A stretch of 64,000 bases of DNA, taken from contig CAMDTN010000001.1 of assembly GCA_945907755.1 (NCBI GenBank), forward strand, positions 62,001 through 126,000. The letters run 5' to 3'. Position numbers and translations under genes: made by a program. Position 1 is the stretch's first letter, and each line of letters begins with the position of its first letter. Origin of the DNA: Singulisphaera sp. GP187 (GTDB lineage: Bacteria; Planctomycetota; GCA-002687715). Positions 1-59,399 of this stretch are shown one piece after another. The notes beneath the pieces are model-generated. The model worked only from the letters and a program-made list of their open reading frames with translations, did not search any database and was not told where the DNA came from.

Positions 1-2020
1 GCTGCAAGCCGTCGCGCACAATGACGGCGATCTCGAAAGCAAAGGCTGGCTCGTAGGGGCGGCAATTCGGAATGGTTGAAGCCAGCAACAGGCTGTGGCC
101 ATCTTCGTGTTGCAGCCCTTCGCCATTCAATGTGGTGCGCCCGGCGGTGGCGCCCAGCAAGAAGCCGCGGCCGCGCAGATCGCCGAAGGCCCAGATCTGA
201 TCGCCTGTGCGCTGGAAACCGAACATCGAATAGAAGATGTAGAACGGAATCATGGGCACGCCGTGCGTGGAATACGCTGTGCCTGCCGCCGAAAACGAGG
301 CCATCGAGCCCGCTTCGGTGATGCCCTCTTCCAACAACTGCCCATCCTTCGCTTCGCGGTAGTACAGCAGCATGTTGCGGTCGATGGGCTCGTAAAGCTG
401 GCCATGCGCCGCATAGATTCCGATTTGGCGGAACAGTGGGTCCATGCCGAAGGTGCGCGCTTCATCCGGCACGATGGGCACGATGTGTTTGCCAAAGGTT
501 TTGTCGCGCAGCAGCTTGGTCAGCAAGCGCACAAAAGCCATGGTCGTGGAAACGCCTTCTTCCGTGACGATGCCTTTGCGGAACTCGGCATACACCTCGT
601 CGCCGGGCAGTGTTGGCGCGGAATCTGGCACGCGGCGGCGGCGCGGCATGGCGCCACCGAGGCTTTTGCGGTGCTCGCGCAGGTATTCCACTTCGGGGCT
701 GTCGGCGCCCGGGTGGAAATACTGCGCGTCGTCTAAGTCCTCGTCGCGGATGGGCAGTTCCAAGCGGTCGCGGAAATCGCGCAACTGTGCGCGGCTCAGT
801 TGCTTCATCTGGTGCGTGACATTGCGCGCCTCAAAGCCATCACCAAGCGTCCAGCCCTTCACCGTGTGGGCGAGGATCACTGTGGGCTGGCCTTTGTGCT
901 CGGTGGCTGCCTTGTAGGCATTCCAGATTTTCACGCGTTCGTGCCCGCCACGGCGCAGGTGATGAATCTGTTCGTCGCTCAAATGGTCGACCGTGCGCAA
1001 ACTCTCAGGTGTCTTGGCGAAGAACCGCTCGCGGGTGTAGCCACCTGGCTCACTGGCATATTTTTGCCACTCGCCGTCAACCACCGCGTTCAGTTGCTCC
1101 ACCAAGCGTCCGTGTTCGTCTTTGTCGAAGATCTGATCCCACTCCGAACCCCACAGCACTTTGATGACATTCCAACCGTTGCCACGGAAAACGCTTTCCA
1201 ATTCTTGGACGATCTTGCCGTTGCCGCGCACGGGGCCGTCGAGGCGCTGCAAATTGCAATTCACTACGAACACGAGGTTGTCGAGGCCTTCGCGCGCCGC
1301 GATGGAAAGCGAACCGAGCGATTCTGGCTCGTCGGTTTCGCCGTCCCCGACGAAAGCCCACACGCGCTGCGCACTGGTGTCCACCAAGCCGCGTGCAGCG
1401 AGGTAGCGGTTGAAGCGTGCTTGGTAAATGGCGCTCAGCGGGCCTAGCCCCATGGACACTGTGGGGAACTGCCAAAAATCTGGCATTAATCTTGGGTGTG
1501 GATAGCTGGACAATCCGCCGCCCAAACTCTCGCGGCGGAAGCGGTCCAGTTGTTCGCTGCTCATGCGCCCTTCCAAAAACGCGCGTGCATAGATACCGGG
1601 GGAGACATGGCCTTGGAACCAAATCTGGTCGCCGCCGCCTTGTGCATCCGGGCCGCGGAAAAAATGGTTGAAGCCCACTTCATAGAGCGTCGCGGCAGAG
1701 GCATAGGTGCTGATGTGCCCGCCGAGGCCGGGGTAGCGATTGTTAGCTCGGCCCACCATCACCGCAGCGTTCCAGCGCACGATGTTCTCGATGCGCAGCT
1801 CCATGGATTCATCGCCGGGATAGGCAAGCTGATCCCGATGGTGAATGCTGTTCACATAGTCGGTGCACACTGGAATGTTGCCCACGGCGCGGCGGCGGCG
1901 CGCCATCTGCAGCAATTGCGTCAACAGCCACTGCGCGCGCTCGGGGCCTTCATGCGCCAACACCGCATCGAGGGATTCCATCCACTCGCGCGTTTCCAGC
2001 GGATCGTTGTCTATGCCCAT
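1..2020 (-). CDS. aceE: Pyruvate dehydrogenase E1 component, homodimeric (5' part; 3' end outside window)
   Basis: This is the thiamine-diphosphate E1 subunit that decarboxylates pyruvate and hands the acetyl group to the E2 lipoyl domain. The reading frame stays open from the ATG at 2020 to the window edge, giving about 673 of the roughly 890 residues usual for AceE. I read on the minus strand the AceE-type N-terminus (MGIDNDPLETREWMESLDAV), the NRYPGLGGHISTYAS stretch, and the TPP motif GDGETDEPE near residue 225. The start is supported by GGAG about 10 nt upstream. It begins 16 bp after the topoisomerase stop on the same strand, so the two may be cotranscribed. No E2 or E3 gene is visible; they would lie beyond the left edge if the usual order holds. 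The organism also has a pyruvate:ferredoxin oxidoreductase at 13.5-18.2 kb. Confidence 0.95.
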   Translation of the reverse strand, partial: MGIDNDPLETREWMESLDAVLAHEGPERAQWLLTQLLQMARRRRAVGNIPVCTDYVNSIHHRDQLAYPGDESMELRIENIVRWNAAVMVGRANNRYPGLGGHISTYASAATLYEVGFNHFFRGPDAQGGGDQIWFQGHVSPGIYARAFLEGRMSSEQLDRFRRESLGGGLSSYPHPRLMPDFWQFPTVSMGLGPLSAIYQARFNRYLAARGLVDTSAQRVWAFVGDGETDEPESLGSLSIAAREGLDNLVFVVNCNLQRLDGPVRGNGKIVQELESVFRGNGWNVIKVLWGSEWDQIFDKDEHGRLVEQLNAVVDGEWQKYASEPGGYTRERFFAKTPESLRTVDHLSDEQIHHLRRGGHERVKIWNAYKAATEHKGQPTVILAHTVKGWTLGDGFEARNVTHQMKQLSRAQLRDFRDRLELPIRDEDLDDAQYFHPGADSPEVEYLREHRKSLGGAMPRRRRVPDSAPTLPGDEVYAEFRKGIVTEEGVSTTMAFVRLLTKLLRDKTFGKHIVPIVPDEARTFGMDPLFRQIGIYAAHGQLYEPIDRNMLLYYREAKDGQLLEEGITEAGSMASFSAAGTAYSTHGVPMIPFYIFYSMFGFQRTGDQIWAFGDLRGRGFLLGATAGRTTLNGEGLQHEDGHSLLLASTIPNCRPYEPAFAFEIAVIVRDGLQ

Positions 2021-7677: not shown

Positions 7678-10605
7678 TTAGATCAATTCCACGGGCTTCT
7701 GCGAACGACGCCGGACCCACCACAACAAAGCCACCGTCAACAAACCCATCACGCTCCACACGATCGTCCAAACGAAACTCATTTCGGCGGCGGAGGCGCG
7801 CTCATCGGGCGACAAACCCGCCAGCCCCGTCAATGGACGGCGCACCGCCGCGCGGTTGCGCAGCGGCATCAATTCGGCGTCGGGGCCGCCTTGATCGATG
7901 GCGTTGGTGATCAAACGGAAATTGCTCTCGAACACAGTCTCTTGCTGTTGAAAAGCGCGGAAGACCACGGGCGAGAACGCATCGGAATCGCCAAAGACCA
8001 CCAGCGAGCAGGCCTTCTGGCTTTCTGCGATGGGCGCACCGCGGCGCGCGGCAGTGGGCGCAGCAGCGGGATCGGCGCTATCCAGCGGCTTGTCCACGCC
8101 GGGAATGGCCTTGTCGGCGAAGTACGACTTGAACTGGCCAGTGACTTGCAGCGCCAGCACCTGCGGCTTTGCGTTCTCAGCCGCTTTCCAGCCGCGCTCC
8201 AAAACCGAATCCACATCGCTCGCATCTGCTTGCGTTCCGGACTTGGCAGAACTGTGCATCAGTTCCGTGCCCACTGCGCCTTCAGGCAACTTGCCCAAGC
8301 TCAATGGCGAAGCCCAGAACATGCCCGACATCGCCAATTGCGCGGTCACCGAGCTTTGCTGATCCATGCCATCAGGGCCCACGCGCACGAAGAACGGGTA
8401 AAGCACATCTTCGATGTAGCGCACGCGCTCGCGGCCCACGCTGCGCGTCTTCAGCAGCGGCAGATAATCGCATTGCTCGTCCAAGAGCAGTTCCGAACCC
8501 AGTACCACGCCGTAGTGCGCCAGCAGTGGTTGCAGCGACTTCGTGTCCACCGGCGCCACTTGAATTGAACCCGAGCGCCCCGTGCCTTCGGAATCGAGGA
8601 CATGGTTGTCGGCCAGAATGATGAGCCGCCCGCCGCGCATGAGGAACTGGTCCAGTTGATAGAGCGCTTGTTGGTTCAGCGCTTTGGGCCGCGCCAACAC
8701 CAGCACGCTCAGTTCACGCGGGATCTCTGGGTTTTCCCCAGCGAGATCAATGCGACGCACTTCGTATTCATCAGACAACAGTTGCTGCACCGCTGCGAAT
8801 TCATCCGGTGGAGGCCGCTGCCCAAACTGCGCCATCATGGGGTCTGCATCGGCCTTAGGCGAGGCAAAGCCCACAACTGACAAGAACCCCGGGATCAGTT
8901 GCTTGAGTGCTCCTTCGAGCGCGCCCTTCACATCAGCTTCACCCAACGCGGCCTGTGACGAATACAGCGGCATCACCTGTTCGTTGCCATCGACATCCAG
9001 CAGCACCCACGAATGGAAGCCGTCTTCAGATAACAGATCCTTGGGGATGGTGGAGATGCGGTACTTGCGGCGCAGTTCAGCATCGACGCCCTTGCGCTCT
9101 TCAGGGCCTTTGTCTTTCCATGGGTCTTTCAACTCCAGCGTGAAGCGCCCGCCAGATTCGCGCTGCAAGCGCGCGCCCACTTTCGTCAGCGTTTCGCGCA
9201 GCCCCTTCATGTGTTCAGGCAGCGTGTCATCTGCTGTCAGTAGCACAGTGGCCTTGGCGCGTTTGTCGCGCGCCACCAGCGCACCGGGCACGCTGCCAAA
9301 CCCCCGCGCCAGCTTCTTCAGCGCGCGCGCCGTCAGAAACTCGACATCGCCCAACTCGACTTCCCAGTCTGTGCCGCCGCGCTCCACGACTTTGATGAGG
9401 CTCTCCAGATTCAGATGTTCGAAATCTGTGCCGCTATTCACCACCACAGAGAAATAGGTGCTGCGGTAACCCGACTGAAAAGCATCGCGCACAGGAATGG
9501 GGAAGGGCCGCACACCGTAGGCGCTTTCCGCTTCGCTCTGTTCTTTCTCGCCGGCTTTGTCCAACTCAACAGCGCGCACTTTCACGCGGCCGCCGGAGGC
9601 CTGCGCAAACTCGCCCAGCAAATCCTTCAGCGGGTCGATCAATGGGCGCAACTTCTCGTGCTGGTTTTCCAGTGCCGAGTAATAGAAAGTGATCTCGCCA
9701 CCCTCTGCGAGGTCGGCCATCAGCTCGGTGGTGGCGGCACTAATGCTGTAGTGCTTGCCTTCGGTGAGGTCGGCACGCCAGAGGTGCAGCGAATCGACCA
9801 AGTGCGTGGTGCATGCGAAGTTCAGCAGCAACAGCCCAGGCAGTAGCGCGAGATTGAAGCGGTCGCGCCCATGACGCCACTCCAGCACCACGGTGTTCAA
9901 CGCCAAGAACCACACGGTGGCTGCGGCGTAGAAAACAAGATCGCCCAAGTCCAGCAAACCGCGCTCTACGGCGTCGAAGCGCCCGCCGAAACCAACATGT
10001 TTGAAGGCTCCTGCGATGTTTTCGGGCAGCAGCGATTCCCAGAACGGTGCGTCCGGCAGCAGAGTCAATGCGCACAGTGCCCAACCGAGGAACAGCGCCA
10101 GCATCTGGTCTTGCACCAGCGACGAACAGAACAGGCCGATGGCCAAGAACGCGGCGCCGAGTAAGAGCGAACCGGTGTAACCACCAAGCACTGGGCCCCA
10201 ATCGAGGTCGCCGTAGCTGGCCGCAGTGAAGGGAATGCCCAGCGTGAACACCAGCGCCATCGCAAGCACAGCGAGTGCGCCGAGGAACTTGCCCAGCACC
10301 AATTGCCCTGACGGCAGCGGCAAAGTGACCAGCAATTCATAGCTGCCGAGTTTGCGCTCGTCGGCCCAACTGCGCATGGTTAGCGCCGGCGCCACCAAGG
10401 CGAGCAGCGCGGGCATCCAACGGAAAAACCCGCGTGCGCTGGCTTGGTCGCTCGCGAAAAAACGTTCGACGAGGAAGAAGGTGGTGACCGCCACCACAAT
10501 GAACAGGCCGGTGAACACATAGGCCAGTGGCGAAGTCAGCGATGCGTGGATTTCGCGCCCCGCCAGAGTGAGAGAGCGATTGCCGCTGCGTGGTGTGTTG
10601 CTCAT
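7678..10605 (-). CDS. Fused ABC-2 permease and GldG-like auxiliary protein
   Basis: A 975-residue fusion of two proteins that are usually separate. Residues about 1-245 form an ABC-2 permease with about six membrane segments (for example SPLAYVFTGLFIVVAVTTFF and LVLGKFLGALAVLAMALVFT). Near 255 a further segment and the DLTEGKHYSISAATTELM stretch begin the GldG (ABC_transp_aux) region, with a DUF4350-like or Rossmann-like soluble part to about 900. A last anchor lies near 943-963 (SFVWTIVWSVMGLLTVALLW). The start ATG overlaps the stop of the ATPase gene by 4 bp, so the pair is translationally coupled. In Bacteroidota GldFG belongs to the gliding apparatus. Elsewhere this module is widespread and its cargo is unknown, so gliding should not be assumed. 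Confidence 0.88.
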   Translation of the reverse strand: MSNTPRSGNRSLTLAGREIHASLTSPLAYVFTGLFIVVAVTTFFLVERFFASDQASARGFFRWMPALLALVAPALTMRSWADERKLGSYELLVTLPLPSGQLVLGKFLGALAVLAMALVFTLGIPFTAASYGDLDWGPVLGGYTGSLLLGAAFLAIGLFCSSLVQDQMLALFLGWALCALTLLPDAPFWESLLPENIAGAFKHVGFGGRFDAVERGLLDLGDLVFYAAATVWFLALNTVVLEWRHGRDRFNLALLPGLLLLNFACTTHLVDSLHLWRADLTEGKHYSISAATTELMADLAEGGEITFYYSALENQHEKLRPLIDPLKDLLGEFAQASGGRVKVRAVELDKAGEKEQSEAESAYGVRPFPIPVRDAFQSGYRSTYFSVVVNSGTDFEHLNLESLIKVVERGGTDWEVELGDVEFLTARALKKLARGFGSVPGALVARDKRAKATVLLTADDTLPEHMKGLRETLTKVGARLQRESGGRFTLELKDPWKDKGPEERKGVDAELRRKYRISTIPKDLLSEDGFHSWVLLDVDGNEQVMPLYSSQAALGEADVKGALEGALKQLIPGFLSVVGFASPKADADPMMAQFGQRPPPDEFAAVQQLLSDEYEVRRIDLAGENPEIPRELSVLVLARPKALNQQALYQLDQFLMRGGRLIILADNHVLDSEGTGRSGSIQVAPVDTKSLQPLLAHYGVVLGSELLLDEQCDYLPLLKTRSVGRERVRYIEDVLYPFFVRVGPDGMDQQSSVTAQLAMSGMFWASPLSLGKLPEGAVGTELMHSSAKSGTQADASDVDSVLERGWKAAENAKPQVLALQVTGQFKSYFADKAIPGVDKPLDSADPAAAPTAARRGAPIAESQKACSLVVFGDSDAFSPVVFRAFQQQETVFESNFRLITNAIDQGGPDAELMPLRNRAAVRRPLTGLAGLSPDERASAAEMSFVWTIVWSVMGLLTVALLWWVRRRSQKPVELI

Positions 10606-13467: not shown

Positions 13468-16400
13468 CTAACGCGGCGCGCTGCTCAGTGCGTCGCGGGC
13501 TGCGACCACCAATTCTCTCGTGCGCGCCATGAAATCGTCTTGCGTGAGCTTGCCCGCAGCAAGTTCTTGCAACACCTGCGCCTGCGCCAGCGCATCCAAA
13601 TTGCGCAATCCCGCACGCGATTGCAGCAAGCGCCACGCTTTGCGGCGTTCGACGCACCACAGCACCAATTGGCGCGAAACGGCGACATTCACCAGCTTGC
13701 CGCTGTCGTTGATCACGCGCGTCCATGCGCCGTCCGCTGGCACATACGCGCGGTTGGTCGGGTCGAGGAAGCGGCGGTGCACCACATCTTGCTGCGTGAT
13801 GCGCAGCAGCACATCGTCCAGGCGTTGGAGTGAAGTCAGCTCTTCGTCGCGCACGCTGCGGAAGTGGCTGCGGAAGCGCGCTTCCGTGTAGGCCCAGTTC
13901 GCCACAGTGAATTCCAGTTTCTCGCCACTCGCTTTATGGGTGATGCTGCTCCAGTCGCGCTCGGGTTGCGGGTTGCCCTTCAGCGATAAGCAAACATTTT
14001 CGAGCTCGCCCTTGGTTGGGTCGCACACAAACTCGGGCATGCCGCGGCTGTCGCGGGCGAGTTGTGCTTGGCGCGACGACAAATGATCGGCAACGCCGTG
14101 CTCGGGCTGGCATGTGGTGAAGCTCTGCACGAATGCCGTGCCGCGATAGGCGAGGGCTTCCAACAGCACGCGGTACAGCGCTGCAGCGTTAGCCATGGAC
14201 ACTTGCGCGATGTAGGGGCTGCCATGCCCGCTGGTGAAGGCTTCGGCCACGCTCTTCTTTTCGGTGAGCTTGCCTTCAGTGGCGGCACCCAACTGGTTCA
14301 TGTCGAAGCCGCCGGGCATGGGCGACGAATCGGAGTTTTGTCCACCGGTGTTGGAATACACCTGCGTGTCCAGCAGCAGGATCTTCAGATTCGGGCGGTT
14401 TTGCAGCACCGCCTTCGAGACATTCTGGAAGCCGATGTCGCCGAAGGCGCCGTCGCCGCCCACTGCCCAAATGCGCGGCAGTTCCAGCACTTCGGTGTCG
14501 CTCATCAGCGTGTCCGTGAAGTGCGTGAACTTCCAGCAGTCGGCTTCTGTCAGCGGCGCGCTGCTCAAAAGTTGATGCGCGAGGCGTTCGGGCACCACGG
14601 AACGGCGCGCGTGATCCATGATGAAACTCTCGGACAACAACCATCCGACAGTGGCGCCGTCTTGGAAGAGCGAGTTCATCCACGGATACGGATGCGGATT
14701 CGCCGGATGCGTGGAACCAAACACGGTGTTGCAGCCGGTGCTGGCGGCCATGCCCATCACAGCCATGCCGTTCCAACGCGCGCCTTCGAACACTTGCAGC
14801 GAGCGATGCGCATGCGCTTCGGCGCGCAGATGCCGCGTCCAGTGCGCTATCAATGCGGCGTCGCTGGGCACGCTGCCTTGCTGCACAGCAGCAGTGTCAG
14901 CGGCGTTTTCGCCACCGATGCCCAACAGCACTTGGGCCAGCAGGCTGCGCCAACGCGCGTGAACCTCAGGCGCTGAAGCCGCAAGTTGTTGCATGTGCGC
15001 AACGCCGTTGCTGTCCAGCGCCGTGGCCAATTGAGCCAAGCGCTCAGCCTTCGCGTGAAATATGGGCCGCATCAAGGCCTCAGAGATGGTGGCCACTGCG
15101 CGGAGCACAGATTTCTCGCCGCAGCCGGCGCAAGCACCGTCGCCAGACACCAGCGCTTGGTAGTTGCTTTGCACCATCAAGTGGAACTGCAGTGCAGCGG
15201 CGCGCGCATCCATCGGATGGTCGGGGTCGAACTGGCCCAAGTGGTGCCGCGGCGTGTCGGGCAGGCAGCGCAAGAATTCGGTGGCGCTGACATGGTCGGC
15301 GTTCAGCGCTTCGCCTTCGTCGACCATGACCAGCGCATTGTGGTCGCCACATTCTTCAACGCATTCGGAGCAGCCCTTGCACAGGTCGCTGATGAAGATG
15401 GAGAAAACGCCGCCGCTGCCAGGTTGTTTGCGCTCGCGCGTAGCGAAGATCATGTTGCAGTGCGCGTAGGCAGCGGGCAGCTTGGGGGCGATGGTGCGCA
15501 GTTCTTCAATACTCTGCGGCCAATTGGCGTGCCGCCCGAGCGTCGCGTCCGTCGCAGCGTGCTGCTCGATGGTTTGCAGCAAGAGCGCGTCAAAGGCCGC
15601 GGGCTTTTCTGTGGCTGGCTTGGCGGCTTCGCGTTTCATGGCATCGCGTAGCACTGGCTCGATCTGCGGCAGCGCGGCCAGTAGTGCCGTGCGCGCCCCG
15701 ACCGAGCTGACATAGCGAGCCACCATTGTGCGCAGCACTGTTCCCAAATCTTGCGCGGTGTTTGGCATCGCGGTGTCGGGGCACGCGACAATGCAGGCCA
15801 TGCACTGCGTGCAATTCTCAGGCACCCACACCGGGACTTGGCGGCGTGCGCCATACTTGGAATTGGTGGCACCTGTGGCTGCGGCCATCAGCCCCGTGGA
15901 CGCGCGAGGTGACGACGGAGTGTCATAGCCCAGCCCAGCGCGGTATTCGGAGTCGTAATCTGCGCGATCAAACAGCGGGGCAGAATTGCAAGGTGCCGCG
16001 CCGTCACCGCACGCGGTGGGCTCGATGGGGCACAGCACTGCGCCCCGCATACTGGATTTGTCGGGGGCGTCCACTGCGCCTGCGCGCACAGTGCGCACGC
16101 GCGCCATGCCTTTGTCCATCACGCTCAAGTTCGACTGCACCACGGCGTCACCAAGTTTGCCGAAGCGCTTTTTGTATTGCGCCGCAACCACATTGCGGAA
16201 CTCCTCGGGGGGAATGTCGTGGTCTTGCAAGAACGACGAGACCGCAAAGAAAGCCCCGAGGAAACTGTTGCCTTGCATGCGGTATTGCAAGTCGGTGCGT
16301 GGCGTGGTCTCGCGCGCGATGCCGAAACCGTCCAGCGAGAACAAGCGGATGCCGCGTTCCAAGATTTCTTGGCGATGACGCGTGGGGATGCGGCTCCAGA

Positions 16401-18168
16401 AGGCGGCGTCATCCGGCTCGGCGGATTCCCACACGAAGGCGCCGCCTTTGTTCAAGCCCGCGAGTGGGTTCGAGTGCAAGAAGGCGCGAGGGTCGCAGCA
16501 AAGGACCACATCCACATGACGCAAGTCGCAGTTGACGCGGATGCGCTCGTCCGCCACCACCAAGAAGTAGCTGGTAGGTGCGCCCTTCTTTTCCGATCCG
16601 TATTTTGGATTGGCACTAATGTGCAGTTGCTTGGTGCCATGCGCATTGCTGCGCTCTGTGGCGAAGCGCCCGAGGTCGCCTAAGACTTCGCTCAAGTTTT
16701 TGCCGGTGGTGATCATGCCCCAGCCGCCGATGGAATGGAAACGCACAGCAATGGCGCTGGGCGGCAGCAAGCTCGGGGTGTCCGCGGCCAGCACCGCGCA
16801 GGGGTGGTCGATGCCGACATAAAAGAACGACGCGCCATCGTCGGCGCGCTTGCCGTCTTGGCGCGCAATGCGGCCGCGCACGAAATCCAACGCTCCCAAA
16901 ACGCCTTCGGGGCGGAAATCGCGCGAGCCCAAACCGTACACGCCCGAAAAAATACGCGGCATGTCCTCGCAGCGCAGCGCGGGCAAACCCGCGTGCGACG
17001 GGGCGCGGCTGTTCTCTAACGCCTTCATGAGTGCAGTGCGCAAGTCTCGCGCCAGCGGGCCGTCGCCAGACAATTGGTCGTCGGTGCGCTCCAGCACAAT
17101 CACTTGCTTCTTGCCGCGCAATGCCTGCAGCACAGCGGCCTCGGGGAAGGGGCGCAGCACATTGATGTGCAGCACGCCGACGCGGTCGCCACGCGTCGCA
17201 TGGATATGCTCCACTGCGGCTTCGATGTTTTCTGCAGCCGAGCCCAGCGCCACGAAGACCACATCGGCGTCAGGGTCGCCACTTTGGCTGACCAGCCCAT
17301 AGTGGCGACCGGTCAACGCGCCGAACTCTGCGTAGGCAGCCTCGAGGAAACCCAGAATGGGTTCCACAAAGTGTTGGCGCCGTGCCGCCACGCCTTGCAT
17401 GTAGTGCTCTTGGTTTTGCACCGATCCCAAAAGCGCAGGATGGCGCAGATCGAACACTTCGGGCACGCGCCGCCGCGTGGGGCCGAACAGCGCGCGTTGT
17501 GCTTCGTTGGGGCAGTCGATTTGGTCATCGGCTCTGCCGAGGAATTCGCGGATCAACCCAGATTCAGCGCGCAAGAAGGTGCGTTCAAGATGCGAGGTCA
17601 AGAAACCGTCTTGTGTATTGATGCCGGGAGTCAGCGACAGTTCACAGACCTTGCGCAAGATCAGCGCTTGGTCAGCCGCTTGCTGCGCGTCTTTCGCAAA
17701 CAGAATGGTCCAGCCGGTGTCCAAGCAGGCGTAAATGTCGTCGTGCCCGCAGTGCACATTCAGTGCATGCTTGGTGATGGCGCGGGCCGCCACCTGCAAC
17801 ACCATGGTCGAGAGCTTGCCCGGCGCGTGGTGGTACTGCTCTAAGCCATACAGCACGCCTTGCCCCGAAGTGAAGTTCGCTACGCGCTTGCCTGTGATGG
17901 AACACGCGATGGCTCCGCCTTGTGCGGCGTGCTCGCCTTCAGCTTCCACCGCCAGCTTCGCGGCCCCAAACACATTGAGTTCGCCGCGCGCCACCGAGGC
18001 TTGAAACAACTCGCCCATCTCGGTGGAAGGCGTGATGGGATAGAACACGCCGGCATCCACCACGCGGGCTTCCACATGCAACGCCACCAGGGTGTTGCCA
18101 TTGGTGGTGATGGGTGTTCCTGGCCAACGCACGACGGGCGCGGCCTGCTTAGCGGCAGCAATTGGCAT
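13468..18168 (-). CDS. nifJ: Pyruvate:ferredoxin (flavodoxin) oxidoreductase, enlarged single-chain form
   Basis: Single-chain PFOR that oxidises pyruvate to acetyl-CoA with transfer of electrons to ferredoxin or flavodoxin. Domain order is N-terminal pyruvate-binding (PITPSTEMGE near 45), transketolase C-like domain II, the gamma domain (about 480-660), and 4Fe-4S motif CTQCMACIVACP (about 784-795). A second cluster CKGCSECVEECG (about 930-941) follows. The TPP domain has GACAGCGEKS (about 1009), VGGDGAFGD (about 1238) and VYSNTGGQNSD (about 1272). At 1566 residues it is about 370 longer than common NifJ proteins. The extra length sits between the clusters, before the TPP core, and in a C-terminal extension of about 230 residues. 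GGAG lies 6 nt before the start. It is monocistronic. The role beside aceE may be low-oxygen growth or reverse carboxylation. Confidence 0.92.
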   Translation of the reverse strand: MPIAAAKQAAPVVRWPGTPITTNGNTLVALHVEARVVDAGVFYPITPSTEMGELFQASVARGELNVFGAAKLAVEAEGEHAAQGGAIACSITGKRVANFTSGQGVLYGLEQYHHAPGKLSTMVLQVAARAITKHALNVHCGHDDIYACLDTGWTILFAKDAQQAADQALILRKVCELSLTPGINTQDGFLTSHLERTFLRAESGLIREFLGRADDQIDCPNEAQRALFGPTRRRVPEVFDLRHPALLGSVQNQEHYMQGVAARRQHFVEPILGFLEAAYAEFGALTGRHYGLVSQSGDPDADVVFVALGSAAENIEAAVEHIHATRGDRVGVLHINVLRPFPEAAVLQALRGKKQVIVLERTDDQLSGDGPLARDLRTALMKALENSRAPSHAGLPALRCEDMPRIFSGVYGLGSRDFRPEGVLGALDFVRGRIARQDGKRADDGASFFYVGIDHPCAVLAADTPSLLPPSAIAVRFHSIGGWGMITTGKNLSEVLGDLGRFATERSNAHGTKQLHISANPKYGSEKKGAPTSYFLVVADERIRVNCDLRHVDVVLCCDPRAFLHSNPLAGLNKGGAFVWESAEPDDAAFWSRIPTRHRQEILERGIRLFSLDGFGIARETTPRTDLQYRMQGNSFLGAFFAVSSFLQDHDIPPEEFRNVVAAQYKKRFGKLGDAVVQSNLSVMDKGMARVRTVRAGAVDAPDKSSMRGAVLCPIEPTACGDGAAPCNSAPLFDRADYDSEYRAGLGYDTPSSPRASTGLMAAATGATNSKYGARRQVPVWVPENCTQCMACIVACPDTAMPNTAQDLGTVLRTMVARYVSSVGARTALLAALPQIEPVLRDAMKREAAKPATEKPAAFDALLLQTIEQHAATDATLGRHANWPQSIEELRTIAPKLPAAYAHCNMIFATRERKQPGSGGVFSIFISDLCKGCSECVEECGDHNALVMVDEGEALNADHVSATEFLRCLPDTPRHHLGQFDPDHPMDARAAALQFHLMVQSNYQALVSGDGACAGCGEKSVLRAVATISEALMRPIFHAKAERLAQLATALDSNGVAHMQQLAASAPEVHARWRSLLAQVLLGIGGENAADTAAVQQGSVPSDAALIAHWTRHLRAEAHAHRSLQVFEGARWNGMAVMGMAASTGCNTVFGSTHPANPHPYPWMNSLFQDGATVGWLLSESFIMDHARRSVVPERLAHQLLSSAPLTEADCWKFTHFTDTLMSDTEVLELPRIWAVGGDGAFGDIGFQNVSKAVLQNRPNLKILLLDTQVYSNTGGQNSDSSPMPGGFDMNQLGAATEGKLTEKKSVAEAFTSGHGSPYIAQVSMANAAALYRVLLEALAYRGTAFVQSFTTCQPEHGVADHLSSRQAQLARDSRGMPEFVCDPTKGELENVCLSLKGNPQPERDWSSITHKASGEKLEFTVANWAYTEARFRSHFRSVRDEELTSLQRLDDVLLRITQQDVVHRRFLDPTNRAYVPADGAWTRVINDSGKLVNVAVSRQLVLWCVERRKAWRLLQSRAGLRNLDALAQAQVLQELAAGKLTQDDFMARTRELVVAARDALSSAPR

Positions 18169-18349: not shown

Positions 18350-20206
18350 CTACTTTCCCGAGGGCTTCGCTTCGGGTTTGGCGATGGCTTCGACGGAGGC
18401 TTTGAAGTTCTCGTCGCCAGTCTGGCTCGCTGCTTGCAGCAACGCTTTGGTCAGACGCTTCGCCTTGGCTTCCTGCTTCGACGTGCGCAGCGAAGCGAGC
18501 AGCAGGCGCATGCGCTCCAGCCCCACGCTCCGCGCGGCGGGTTGCGTTGCAATGCCGCGCACCAAATGCACCAAGGCACTCATGCAGGCTTCTTGAGCTT
18601 TGCCTTCGGCGGCAGCGGCGCGTTCTGCCCAAGTGTCCAAGCTGAGTGCGATCACTGCGTCGGCCGCTGTGGGTTCAATCACTAGTTTGTGCCCGTCGTC
18701 GCCCTGCGCCAACAACTTCGCGGCTTCTGCTGCATCCGGCACCACGCGCGCGGCGGTGCGCGCGGCCATGTTGCGCAAGCTTGTAGCGCTCAGGCTGATT
18801 TCCGCGCCCGCATCGGCCATGGACAACACCGTGGTGGTGCATTCTTCTAAGTGGGCCTTTGCAGCAGCGACGGAGCAATTCGCCCCCAAGAGTGCAGGCT
18901 CGCACAGCACCAACACTGCATCGAAAGCCAGTGGATGTTGTGCAAAGGCGCGCGCCGCTGCGGCGACTAATGCCTGTTGCGCCTCTGGCTTCTCTGCGCG
19001 CGCCAGTTCGCAGCGCACTTTCCAAGCGGTGAAATTGCAGGGGCTGCGCTTGCAAGCTTGAGCCAGCGCGTTCAATCGTTGATCTTGCGGTGCCAACGCA
19101 GCGGCAGCGCGCAGGGCTTCACTTGCAGCGAAGCCTTCCTGATCTCGTTGCGCTTCTTGCATCACACGCACCCACCACGCGCCGCTGCCAAACGGAATGC
19201 TGATGCCGTCGTGGCAGCTCGAACCGCTCCAGCCGGAATTGTCATTGCCAGTGCGCCACGAGTGCAGTGCGTTCTGCCAAATCAAGGCGCAGTGCCCCGG
19301 TTGCCCTACAGGCATGGCGGGCACTCCGAAGGCTTGACTCATGGACGTGCCGAAGCGGCCCACCGTGCCACACACGCCGCCGTATTCGAGCATGATCGCG
19401 AGCGTGACGGGTTTGTTGTCGTAAAAGCTGCGCCCGGCGTGGATGCTGACACCTTGCGCGTTGTGGCCGCGGTACGGAGCCATGTGAGCGGCGTCGCCCA
19501 CTTTGTCGTGCGTGCGCAGTTCAGGTTTGATGTTTTCGCGCGCCCAAACTAAGTCTGCGTCGGAAGACCAACTGCCCACCACATAGCGCAGCTCCCACGC
19601 ACTGAGCTCGCGAAACGCAGGAAAAAGAACGCCCTCGCTGTCCCAGCGCAAGTACGAAGCATGACGCGCTACGGGGTCGATGGCGCTGCCATCGGCCATC
19701 CATTGCACCGGCTGCGCAAAAGTGAGCGCGGTGGCGACTGCGACGCGCAGCGACAAACCCTGTTTCGATTTCTCGTCGGCGCGCACGATGCGGTCCAGCA
19801 CGCGCAGCGCTTCAGGCCATTTGTCGCCTGAAGCGTCGCCCGACGCCACGAACAGTTTGAGCGCGCCTGCATCAGCCAACAGCCATGCCAGCGTTTCCTT
19901 GCATTCGGTGTTGGCGCGGCCTTCCACGCCTAAGACTGAAAGCAGGCGCCACTGCAACAGCGCTTGTGCGCCGTCGGGATCTGCCGCAAAGACGCCAATG
20001 GCAGCGGGCGCAGCGCTGAAGCGGCGGCGCAACGATTCGTCGAGATGCTGGAAGTGCGCGGGCAGTGTGCCGCTGCGCGCAGCATCGACGCTGGCCGCGC
20101 ACAGTTCCATGGCTTTCGGTGGCGCTTGTGGCGTTGCCCACAGGGCCAGCGGTTGAAGGAGCACTAATGCAATAGCGATGTTGGCGGCGATGGACGGCAT
20201 GGCCAC
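18350..20206 (-). CDS. Exported transglutaminase-like protein
   Basis: 618 residues with an N-terminal signal segment (IAANIAIALVLLQPLALW). The centre has the layout of a transglutaminase/papain-like fold: a cysteine in EYGGVCGTVGRFGTS (about 278) and a histidine in GQPGHCALIW (about 305), with an aspartate or asparagine candidate in GNDNSGWSG. The C-terminal half is alanine-rich and helical, resembling a repeat scaffold. The frame starts 3 bp after the stop of the haem-binding gene, suggesting one transcript. Whether it cross-links, cleaves peptides or is inactive cannot be told from the sequence. No named family is recognised with certainty. Confidence 0.65.
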   Translation of the reverse strand: MAMPSIAANIAIALVLLQPLALWATPQAPPKAMELCAASVDAARSGTLPAHFQHLDESLRRRFSAAPAAIGVFAADPDGAQALLQWRLLSVLGVEGRANTECKETLAWLLADAGALKLFVASGDASGDKWPEALRVLDRIVRADEKSKQGLSLRVAVATALTFAQPVQWMADGSAIDPVARHASYLRWDSEGVLFPAFRELSAWELRYVVGSWSSDADLVWARENIKPELRTHDKVGDAAHMAPYRGHNAQGVSIHAGRSFYDNKPVTLAIMLEYGGVCGTVGRFGTSMSQAFGVPAMPVGQPGHCALIWQNALHSWRTGNDNSGWSGSSCHDGISIPFGSGAWWVRVMQEAQRDQEGFAASEALRAAAALAPQDQRLNALAQACKRSPCNFTAWKVRCELARAEKPEAQQALVAAAARAFAQHPLAFDAVLVLCEPALLGANCSVAAAKAHLEECTTTVLSMADAGAEISLSATSLRNMAARTAARVVPDAAEAAKLLAQGDDGHKLVIEPTAADAVIALSLDTWAERAAAAEGKAQEACMSALVHLVRGIATQPAARSVGLERMRLLLASLRTSKQEAKAKRLTKALLQAASQTGDENFKASVEAIAKPEAKPSGK

Positions 20207-26841: not shown

Positions 26842-26915
26842 GATTCCGACTTTGATGCCCGCAGCGCAAGGGCAGTGCTTCCACCGTGCTGGGCCGCCTG
26901 CTACAAAACAGCGCC

Positions 26916-27725
26916 ATGGATGTGAGCCTTGCCACCCTCATCGACAACCGCGCCGAAACGCCAACGGTATGGCGCATGGCGCTGGATTGGGACGCCTTGG
27001 CGCGTGGGGCGCGCGCTGCACGCTTCGTCATGCTGGCGTTGGAAGACAACGCAGTGCAAGTGCTGCCGCGGCCCTTCAGCCTGTCGGATGTGTGGCGCCG
27101 CGCCGATGGCCGCGTGGTCACAGAGCTGCTGTACAAGCCCATGGGCCGTGTCACCCAGCGCATGACGCAGTTGCGCGCTGGGGCACAGGTGCGCATTGGC
27201 GGCTTGGCGGGCAACGGTTTTCCACAGCCCGCTTCAGAGCGGCGTCCGGTGCTGCTGGCAGGTGGCATCGGCAATGCGCCCTTCGCGCTGCAAGTGCGCG
27301 AACTCCTTGCGGGCGGCCGCGCGCAAGAGGTGGTGCTGGTCCTTGCTGGCCGTTCGGCGCAAGACATTTGGATTCAGCCCAGCGTGCGGGAATCTGGCAT
27401 CACCATTATCGAATGCACCGACGATGGCTCGCGTGGCGAGCACGGGCGCATCACTGAAGTATTGCAGCGCCGCTTGAGCACGCTGGGCCCCATCGAGGCT
27501 TTCGTGTGCGGCCCCGAACCCATGTTGCATGCGGTGCAACAAATGGCTTTGAAAGAGCAGTTTCCCTGCCACTTGTCGGTGGAAGAGCGCATGGCTTGCG
27601 GCTATGGCGTGTGCAACGCCTGCGTGGTGGAATCTGCGCAGCCGGGCGTGCCGTGCGGGCAAGGCGACTATTTGCGCGCTTGTGTGGATGGTCCGGTATT
27701 CGAAGCGAGGAGCATTCACGCATGA
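26916..27725 (+). CDS. pyrK: PyrK-like iron-sulfur flavoprotein (dihydroorotate dehydrogenase electron-transfer subunit type)
   Basis: 269-residue member of the ferredoxin-reductase superfamily. It has the FAD motif RPFSLSDV (about 52-59), the nucleotide motif LLAGGIGNAPFAL and the VCGPEPML stretch. The C-terminal 2Fe-2S binding site is CGYGVCNACVVE ... CGQGDYLRACVDGPVF. This order matches PyrK, which passes electrons from PyrD to NAD. No pyrD lies beside it; the next genes are a lipoprotein and a PDZ protein. It may serve a remote PyrD or another oxidoreductase. The start at 26916 is preferred over an ATG 10 codons upstream because it gives the usual N-terminus; a clear ribosome site is not seen. 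Confidence 0.78.
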   Translation: MDVSLATLIDNRAETPTVWRMALDWDALARGARAARFVMLALEDNAVQVLPRPFSLSDVWRRADGRVVTELLYKPMGRVTQRMTQLRAGAQVRIGGLAGNGFPQPASERRPVLLAGGIGNAPFALQVRELLAGGRAQEVVLVLAGRSAQDIWIQPSVRESGITIIECTDDGSRGEHGRITEVLQRRLSTLGPIEAFVCGPEPMLHAVQQMALKEQFPCHLSVEERMACGYGVCNACVVESAQPGVPCGQGDYLRACVDGPVFEARSIHA

Positions 27726-57425: not shown

Positions 57426-59399
57426 ATGAAGATGTTCCGCCTGACACCCGGCAAGCGGGTGCTGTTCCTGACCAAAGACCCGGCGCTGATCACCCAGCAG
57501 TTGCAAGGCAAGCTGGACTTGCGCATGGATGCGCTGCACGCGGAAGATCTGTTGGATGATGTGAACACCGACGCGATGACGCCGGCATGGGCTTGCTTCG
57601 ACTGGCGTCCGGCGGACATCGCGGTGAATGCCTATGCCGGGCTGAGTGTGAATGGCGAGCGCTTGTTTCCCGCCAACGCGCTGAAGAACGGCAACTTCGA
57701 GGTGATCGTGTCGGGCCGGCGCAAGGGCACGGGTTCGTCGCGCGAAACTGCGGTGCAGGCAGAAAAGTGGAGTGGCATCCGCTTAGCGGTAGCGGATTCA
57801 TTCGCGCCCATTCATGCGCGCAACAACATCAATCAAGGCGTGTTGATGAGCAGCTATTCACTGCTCGCGCGCTTGCAGGCAGGCGAGGCCATCGGGCTGG
57901 ATGAGTTCTGCCCCGACTACGACCCCATCACCCGCGCCATCGTCATGGCGGGCGGCCTGTTCCCATTTGGGCGCGCCCTCGCGGCGGGCCAAGTGCAACT
58001 GCCAACGCGCAACTGCCCCACGCGGCCCATGACCATGGGCGAAAAGATGGTGGGGGCACATTTGCTGCCAGGCCAGGGGCCAACTGCGGTGCGACCTGGC
58101 GATGCTGTGTTGGTGAAAGTCGACAGCGGCTACAGCCACGAATTCACCACGGCGCAGGTGCACGCATTCCTCGAAGAAGAATTCGGTGCGGACTACCGCG
58201 TTGCGGACGCCACCAATTTCGCGGTGTTTGAAGACCACCTCATTTATGCCGACGGTGTGGAACGCATGGCGCCGTACTCCGCGAAGATCGCGGTGCTGCG
58301 CTCCATGCAGCGCGCATTTCAAGTGCACACTGGCGTACGCGACTATTCCGCGCGCGAAGGTCGCTCGCCAGGCATTTGCCATCAAGTAGCGCGCGAGGAA
58401 TTCATCAACCCTGGCATGTTGGTGCAAGCCACCGACAGCCACACTTGCATGGGCGGCGGCAACAACGCGTTGTCTTTCGGCGTGGGTGCCACGGAATATG
58501 CGGCGCTCATCCAATGCGGCTTCACCATGCTGCGCGTGCCCGAATCCATCCGCTTCGAACTGCACGGAAAGTTGCAGCCGGGCGTCACCGCCAAAGACGC
58601 AATGCTGTGGATTTTATGGCAGTACGCAGCCAAAGGGCTGACGCTGGATCGTGTGATGGAGTTCGGCGGGCCGGGCCTTGCAGGTTTGGACATGGACGAG
58701 CGCGCCACGCTGGCGAACATGGCCACGGAATGCACAGCCAAGTCCGGCATCTGTGAAGGAGACGAGCAAACGGTGCAGTGGATCGCCTCACGGCGCGGCG
58801 TCAGTGAAGCGTCGGTGCGTGCGCAGTTGGTGCACCCAGATGCTGGTGCCACGTACGCAGGCGGCGTGCACATCATCGACCTCAGCACGCTGAAGCCTAT
58901 GGTGGCAACACCGGGCGACCCAGCCGCAGGGGTGCCCTCAGACCCCACCAACGGCGCGTTCATCGAAGCGCTGGGCGTAGTGAAAATCGACATCGCATAC
59001 GGCGGCAGTTGCACCGCGGGGAAAGACACCGACCTCGACCACTACGCGCTTGTGGTGCGTGAGGCGTTGGCCGCCGGGCTGCGCGTGGCCGACGGCGTGC
59101 AGTTCATGATCCAGTGTGGCTCGCAAGCGGTGGAAGCCCATGTGGATCGCAACGGTTATCGCGAACTGTTCGAACGCGCGGGTGTGCAGCTCATCGGTGC
59201 CGGATGCGGCGCGTGCATCGGTTGCGGGCCGGGCGTCAGCACCACGGCTCAGCAAGTGACCATCAGCGCCATCAACCGCAATTTCCAAGGGCGCAGCGGC
59301 CCCGGGCAGCTTTACTTGGCTTCACCGCTCAGCGTTGCTGCTTCGGCCTTCACAGGCCGCATTAGTGCCTACAGCGAGGGCATGTTCCAGCGGATCTGA
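57426..59399 (+). CDS. Aconitase-superfamily hydro-lyase with swivel domain first (permuted)
   Basis: 657 residues. The N-terminal about 200 residues are a LeuD/swivel-type domain (SGRRKGTGSSRETAVQAEKW, VADSFAPIHARNN). The LeuC-like catalytic part follows: DSHTCMGGGNN (about 336), GSCTAGKDTDLDHY (about 526) and GCGACIGCGPG (about 593), which gives the three Fe-S cysteines. Aconitase A and homoaconitase have the reverse order, with the swivel at the end; aconitase B also places it early. The substrate (citrate, isopropylmalate, methylcitrate or other) is open. Start at MKMFRL with AAAGG before it; M3 is an alternative. It follows enoyl-CoA hydratase by 16 bp. Confidence 0.88.
   Translation: MKMFRLTPGKRVLFLTKDPALITQQLQGKLDLRMDALHAEDLLDDVNTDAMTPAWACFDWRPADIAVNAYAGLSVNGERLFPANALKNGNFEVIVSGRRKGTGSSRETAVQAEKWSGIRLAVADSFAPIHARNNINQGVLMSSYSLLARLQAGEAIGLDEFCPDYDPITRAIVMAGGLFPFGRALAAGQVQLPTRNCPTRPMTMGEKMVGAHLLPGQGPTAVRPGDAVLVKVDSGYSHEFTTAQVHAFLEEEFGADYRVADATNFAVFEDHLIYADGVERMAPYSAKIAVLRSMQRAFQVHTGVRDYSAREGRSPGICHQVAREEFINPGMLVQATDSHTCMGGGNNALSFGVGATEYAALIQCGFTMLRVPESIRFELHGKLQPGVTAKDAMLWILWQYAAKGLTLDRVMEFGGPGLAGLDMDERATLANMATECTAKSGICEGDEQTVQWIASRRGVSEASVRAQLVHPDAGATYAGGVHIIDLSTLKPMVATPGDPAAGVPSDPTNGAFIEALGVVKIDIAYGGSCTAGKDTDLDHYALVVREALAAGLRVADGVQFMIQCGSQAVEAHVDRNGYRELFERAGVQLIGAGCGACIGCGPGVSTTAQQVTISAINRNFQGRSGPGQLYLASPLSVAASAFTGRISAYSEGMFQRI

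Follow-up and report, generated by a model that had tools for sequence, protein, structure and literature searches.

This locus raises the question of why a protein built like a pyruvate:ferredoxin oxidoreductase (PFOR) should be far longer than its known relatives, and whether the extra residues are peculiar to one copy or belong to a larger group. It lies in the window, a 64,000-nucleotide stretch of a Singulisphaera sp. GP187 contig, which was first described as carrying a PFOR with all its cofactor motifs, additional sequence in three places, and a pyruvate dehydrogenase (PDH) gene, aceE, beside it. That description proved right in essence, although it over-read some details, among them the size of the C-terminal extension, the place of one insert, and the proximity of aceE. 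We consider it likely that the gene encodes a deep-branching, insert-bearing, single-chain PFOR-type enzyme that is distinct from NifJ and acts most probably on pyruvate, with inserts that may brace the protein or shield its clusters.

Domains and cluster ligands of the window PFOR

The four domains identified in the window PFOR lie on one chain in PFOR order, each above its Pfam gathering score (Table 1). Twelve cysteines expected to ligate three [4Fe-4S] clusters, two CxxCxxCxxxC motifs and four proximal-cluster residues, are invariant in all 57 proteins of an alignment of 49 type A sequences (the window copy included), 3 of type B, and 5 canonical PFORs; the types are described below. With 12 of 12 cluster cysteines and the thiamine pyrophosphate (TPP) core in place, the full set of cofactor motifs originally reported is confirmed. 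The PFORs of D. africanus and Moorella were the top solved relatives (phmmer E values 8.4e-76 to 5.3e-74). Against the NCBIfam NifJ equivalog model TIGR02176 the protein scored 364.1 bits, far under the curated cut-off of 911.35, and by the rule of that model it is therefore not called a NifJ equivalog.

Table 1. Features of the long PFOR gene and of aceE, in window coordinates
Feature	Position	Strand	Basis
aceE (PDH E1), cut by window edge	1..2011	-	TIGR00759 1343.8 bits (cut-off 859.9), G000:C1:61366-64011
Long-form single-chain PFOR-type 2-oxoacid:acceptor oxidoreductase	13468..18168	-	one ORF, ATG start, 1566 aa
POR_N (domain I), residues 38-258	17395..18057	-	PF01855, 133.6 bits
PFOR_II (domain II), residues 301-383	17020..17268	-	PF17147, 58.4 bits
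POR gamma-type domain (domain III), residues 481-688	16105..16728	-	PF01558, 79.4 bits
TPP-binding core (GDG..NTGGQ), TPP_enzyme_C, residues 1232-1348	14125..14475	-	PF02775, 28.6 bits
[4Fe-4S] cluster motif 1, Cys 786/789/792/796	15781..15813	-	invariant in 57/57 proteins
[4Fe-4S] cluster motif 2, Cys 930/933/936/940, then Gly 941	15349..15381	-	Cys invariant in 57/57 proteins
Proximal-cluster Cys 1013 and 1016 (CAGCGE)	15121..15132	-	alignment of 57 proteins
TGC motif with proximal-cluster Cys 1146	14731..14739	-	alignment of 57 proteins
Proximal-cluster Cys 1353	14110..14112	-	alignment of 57 proteins
Insert I, between the two ferredoxin-type clusters, residues ~812-894, predicted helical	15487..15735	-	lacking in canonical PFORs aligned; helices, block pLDDT 85-95
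Insert II, within the proximal-cluster ligand set, residues ~1029-1137, predicted long helical hairpin	14758..15084	-	lacking in canonical PFORs aligned; block pLDDT mostly 86-98
C-terminal region, residues 1436-1566: predicted insertion (beta hairpin and helices) and extra terminal helix	13471..13863	-	net +110 vs YdbK; model

Placement of the extra residues

The window PFOR exceeds E. coli YdbK (1174 residues) by 392, so the excess of about 370 residues over the usual length that was first noted is real. Alignment of the two proteins, on which the region borders depend, assigns 88 additional residues to the stretch between the two ferredoxin-type clusters, where extra sequence had been noted, 105 to the stretch between the second and third proximal-cluster cysteines, and a net 110 to the part after the last cluster cysteine; the remaining differences are gains of 6-36 residues elsewhere, minus 30 at two places. 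The second of these insertions had been placed ahead of the TPP core; it exists, but sits among the proximal ligands. Similarly, a C-terminal extension is present, but the figure of about 230 residues first given for it counts a tail that canonical PFORs have as well: 213 residues follow the last cysteine in the window PFOR and 96-118 in five canonical PFORs, leaving a net extension of about 110.

The ending of cluster 2 in ECG (residues 939-941), where CP is usual, was also noted at the outset. The altered residues adjoin a ligand cysteine, and no ligand is changed. The glycine is a family trait, found after cluster 2 in 49/49 type A proteins where 5/5 canonical PFORs have proline, but the glutamate is not, occurring in only 10 of the 49.

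Predicted structure of the C-terminal half

Residues 700-1566 were modeled as a single chain with AlphaFold2 from a 57-sequence alignment, giving a mean pLDDT of 82.3 and a pTM of 0.86. Inserts I (helices ~808-896) and II (helices ~1017-1123) were predicted with confidence and are helical, and the C-terminal region forms a beta hairpin and helices; the linker ahead of cluster 1 and a TPP-domain loop (~1273-1298) were poorly predicted. A fold search with the model identified 6cin_B as the best match (Z 24.5, rmsd 5.3, 479 of 867 residues aligned), with PFOR at the top of the ranking, followed by oxalate oxidoreductase and archaeal 2-oxoacid:ferredoxin oxidoreductases (OFORs), and other TPP enzymes at Z ≤ 14.5; Foldseek matched the model to PFOR/OFOR structures with an E value of 1.5e-13 and a TM score of 0.41. 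As modeled, the C-terminal half of the protein has the PFOR core fold. Predicted alone, insert II was again helical (pLDDT 77.7), and a search of the PDB with it gave no Foldseek match at E ≤ 0.001 and a best VIA Z of 5.7. This lack of a match to the predicted insert is not evidence of a new fold, and we claim no known module.

The long form is the standard architecture of a widespread clade

Relatives were drawn from one scan of genome contigs, of which the best 80 of 130 confirmed relatives (55-66% identity in the best segment) were kept. The full-length alignment set of 67 comprises 65 of those 80 and two others; the omitted 15 were not full length, most of them because the contig stops short, and L071 diverges at its C terminus. 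The open frames of the 67, counted from the aligned N terminus, span 1549-1681 residues (median, 1576), with the inserts at the same positions and of similar length. Because the long architecture is kept across these 67 close relatives, it is not a product of chance. The window PFOR has the traits of the group that we designate type A, namely a length of ~1550 residues, an insert between the clusters, another between proximal cysteines 2 and 3, and glycine after cluster 2. Its extra length is a standard trait of a widespread long PFOR clade, within which the window copy is unexceptional. The original prediction would have been contradicted by extensions usual in a known subfamily of defined function; they are indeed standard for a whole subfamily, but a literature search of titles and abstract openings, with subscription journals mostly outside its coverage, found no characterized member. 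Excerpts of one paper note por/nifJ in select Acidobacteria (PMC5900883).

Most type A records are titled Acidobacteria or a subgroup thereof, among them the strains Terracidiphilus gabretensis (L032) and Acidicapsa dinghuensis (L068), and the titles of others read Deltaproteobacteria (L019), Gemmatimonadetes (L089), or Acidimicrobiia (L025, L056, and L062). At least the title of L056 may be wrong, since its genome falls with the Acidobacteria in an RpoB tree (rows G037, G029, and L111 were disregarded, their frames of 1463, 1824, and 1440 residues being probably not RpoB). At E ≤ 1e-60 and identity above 50%, type A was present in 8 of 149 genomes of an evenly drawn Acidobacteria sample, one by a fragment only, and in 15 of 199 genomes of the window's own phylum, some of them fragmentary. 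The distribution of the long form is patchy, taking in the window's phylum, Acidobacteria, and metagenome-assembled genomes labeled Gemmatimonadetes or Deltaproteobacteria. PSCyt1 matches point weakly to Planctomycetota as the window's phylum: they numbered 4 in G000 (the window genome), 14 in G005, and 56 in G034, but four further genomes of that phylum had 0, and the genomes of L042, L032, and L068, Acidobacteria by title or genus, had 94, 4, and 2. A type B or canonical copy accompanies type A in at least three genomes (G037, G219, and G305). Both long types occur in G037, which holds L148 (398-5773, minus strand) with L005, and in G219, which holds L149 (662-5761, minus strand) with L132. 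The match to the type A PFOR L139, on G309:C274, is broken into several pieces along a single contig.

FastTree was run on 47 proteins chosen by hand, 41 of types A, B, and C and 6 canonical NifJ-type sequences, each represented by its N-terminal 700 residues, with supports computed by bipartition. The canonical sequences split from all of the others on a branch of 1.77 with a support of 1.0, and the window PFOR lies outside their group; 18 alignment positions set types A, B, and C apart from the canonical PFORs. Each type is a clade (support of 1.0 for A, 0.999 for B, and 0.986 for C), and the two long forms, A and B, are sisters (0.998). On the simplest reading of these sequences, the inserts would have arisen on the stem of A and B. 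The window copy groups with L089, L015, and G065 (0.975), its closest grouping, with L089 and L015, reaching only 0.69. The PFOR of G005, a genome of the same family as the window's, is not grouped with it, and no type A match was found in G001-G004, which belong to the window's genus or family; these results suggest that the window copy was acquired horizontally.

Possible role of the inserts

In the mechanism that we propose, the window PFOR would decarboxylate pyruvate on TPP, in the direction of oxidation, pass the electrons singly along the relay of proximal, middle, and distal [4Fe-4S] clusters to what is probably a small ferredoxin-type carrier, and release acetyl-CoA, with CO2 as the other product. 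The genome has several Fer4 matches, one of them, in a 128-residue frame on contig C7, below the cut-off. The ~330 extra residues of the C-terminal half, predicted to be mostly helical modules in the cluster regions, would, in oxygen-respiring cells, serve to brace the protein or to shield its clusters.

PFORs are generally oxygen sensitive, and in the D. africanus enzyme a C-terminal domain covers the proximal cluster and confers oxygen stability, according to excerpts of one account (PMC5020499). The window genome encodes a heme-copper oxidase. In a search with PF00115 at E ≤ 1e-30, with types set from identity and length, and not all in the tree, the oxidase was found in 31/32 genomes with type A, 12/12 with type B, 11/12 with type C, and 17/24 with a canonical match only. 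The difference between long forms (43/44) and canonical genomes gave P = 0.002, and within the window's phylum alone (20/21 versus 7/14) P = 0.003; since the genomes compared are related, these Fisher values are not independent tests. All 10 canonical Acidobacteria genomes searched have the oxidase, and the difference stems from the window's phylum alone. A simple reading is further weakened by the type A genomes, noted above, that hold a type B or canonical copy as well. Because the insert-free type C also occurs in oxidase genomes, cells can live with oxygen without the inserts, and because type C matches the long forms, the association belongs to the A, B, and C side as a whole in that phylum and is not specific to the inserts. 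By analogy with the D. africanus domain, oxygen shielding by the inserts is possible.

The inserts might instead be docking or oligomerization surfaces for a different electron carrier or partner, a reading that we hold to be plausible but the less probable one. Insert I lies between the ferredoxin-type clusters, where an external carrier would be expected to approach, and the insert sequences are less conserved (mean top-residue frequencies of 0.61 and 0.68, versus 0.82-0.91 in the cluster and TPP stretches), as is common for surface elements. However, the loci offer no conserved neighbor as a partner: in a survey with a crude open reading frame picker, which missed the PFOR itself in some loci, the most widespread neighboring cluster was found in 16 loci and the next in 9, versus 76 for the PFOR. 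Nor is any known docking module recognized in insert II, which by itself has no significant PDB match. Bracing or shielding remains our preferred role for the inserts.

A bolder form of that role, which we put forward as a speculation with the chances against it, is that a deep second lineage of single-chain pyruvate oxidoreductases evolved helical armor round its Fe-S relay, allowing low-potential PFOR chemistry in oxygen-respiring soil and aquatic bacteria, and that it may be the main or only route from pyruvate to acetyl-CoA in some hosts. Terracidiphilus gabretensis would be an example; it has no AceE and no E1 alpha (TIGR03182) over the cut-offs, its TIGR03182 match being 161 bits on a 726-residue frame against a cut-off of 393.85. 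TIGR03182 exceeded its cut-off in 3 of 50 genomes but gave some match at E ≤ 1e-20 in 48 of them, so the absence of any PDH is not claimed. A large clade outside the NifJ model, present mostly in oxidase-bearing genomes and with conserved helical inserts, supplies constructs with which PFOR function amid oxygen can be tested; the window copy adds little to it beyond one further member.

Substrate

Oxidation of pyruvate to acetyl-CoA and CO2 is the most likely reaction, because all cofactor ligands and the PFOR core are kept. The window PFOR has HALNVHCGHDD where canonical PFORs have HALSIFGDHSD, a stretch that we presume to lie near the substrate pocket. Two of the 18 positions at which the canonical PFORs differ from types A, B, and C fall in HALNVH, and this, together with the score under the pyruvate equivalog cut-off of TIGR02176 and the presence of AceE in the same genome, could point to specificity for another 2-oxoacid. 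We judge that unlikely: the YPITPS loop, the arginine of ARA, the YSNTGGQ loop, and the TGC motif are all kept, and the genome has, on contig C13, another POR_N gene paired with a TPP partner, a separate two-gene enzyme of the KorAB type. One compact relative adjoins a LeuA-family gene, which also argues against another 2-oxoacid. Pyruvate is thus retained as the probable substrate.

Genomic neighborhood and pyruvate dehydrogenase

The aceE gene that was first reported to stand beside the PFOR is genuine (Table 1) but not adjacent. It lies 11.5 kb away, and between the two are genes for a topoisomerase III, a DUF4340 protein, a fused GldF/GldG-like protein and its ATPase, and an arginase-family protein (on the other strand), as well as frames without a family. 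Because of these intervening genes, one of them on the opposite strand, aceE and the PFOR gene do not form one operon. The fused protein (7678-10605, minus strand) is a 975-residue chain that joins a GldF-like permease to a GldG-like substrate protein and adjoins the ABC ATPase and the DUF4340 protein. Directly upstream of the PFOR gene, a 618-residue protein (18350-20206, minus strand) has no Pfam or NCBIfam match; a Cys...His stretch in it looks transglutaminase-like by eye. Next to the type C genes we saw, in addition to the LeuA-type gene, a kinase, purine-synthesis genes, a single multiheme cytochrome c, and two proteins that matched no family.

Replacement of PDH by the long form was considered and rejected. 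AceE exceeded its cut-off in 12 of 36 long-form genomes from several phyla and in 10 of 14 hand-picked Acidobacteria without a long form (P = 0.025); in the evenly drawn Acidobacteria sample it occurred in 3 of 8 genomes with the long form and in 60 of the remaining 141 (Fisher P = 1.0). The claim was dropped because the effect was gone in that sample. The 12 of 36 set against the same 60 of 141 gives P = 0.35. Excerpts of a study of Acidobacterium capsulatum report more transcription of poxB, aceEF, lpdA, and por at low oxygen (PMC11636273); both PDH and por rise, so they would shift together there, and this por may or may not be the long form. The original suggestion of an oxygen- or redox-driven switch between PDH and PFOR, prompted by the presence of both genes within 16 kb, is very improbable and not supported, in view of the intervening genes, the even AceE counts, and this joint rise of aceEF and por in A. 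capsulatum.

Two further genes of the window were noted. The product of 57426-59399 (plus strand) resembles aconitase and isopropylmalate dehydratase, with a LeuD-like small-subunit stretch (~44-159) ahead of a LeuC-like part (~202-650), an arrangement of which the order in AcnA is the reverse. The product of 26886-27725 (plus strand) has a NAD-binding domain and an Fe-S domain of the dihydroorotate dehydrogenase B type and is a possible electron-transfer subunit.

Comparison with known systems

The homodimeric PFORs of the NifJ/YdbK type (TIGR02176), including those of D. africanus (1B0P) and Moorella (6CIN), share with the window PFOR the domain order on one chain, the TPP core, the same twelve cysteines for three [4Fe-4S] clusters, and, as modeled, the core fold. 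The window PFOR differs from them in its low identity (25-28% over the aligned stretch), its place in a separate deep clade, its 392 residues in excess of YdbK, the inserts in its cluster regions, and glycine in place of proline after cluster 2.

Type B, the sister of type A, includes G029, G016, G322, the second copies of G037 and G219, and others, and largely shares the insert pattern: most of the three type B proteins aligned lack only 52 of the residues in the C-terminal half of the window PFOR. It differs in sequence (~35-42% identity) and has proline or aspartate after cluster 2 in 3 of 3 proteins. The compact type C relatives are the nearest outgroup to the long forms and share the NVH.GHDD-type N-terminal signature, but they lack large inserts and are usually split into genes of ~660 and 535 residues, with one fused protein of 1199; two genes were found at 5 of 6 loci inspected. 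L142, L143, L144, L146, and L147 are compact relatives of this two-gene kind, with adjoining frames of ~660-770 and 531-546 residues, and stand closer to types A and B than to NifJ.

Domain VII of D. africanus PFOR, a swapped C-terminal arm, is likewise an addition to the core and is reported, in the excerpts cited above, to protect against oxygen near the proximal cluster (PMC5020499). The additions in the window PFOR are, in contrast, mainly internal, and the single-chain model aligns with D. africanus PFOR up to residue 1170, stopping ahead of domain VII as placed in excerpts of a second account (PMC8945911).
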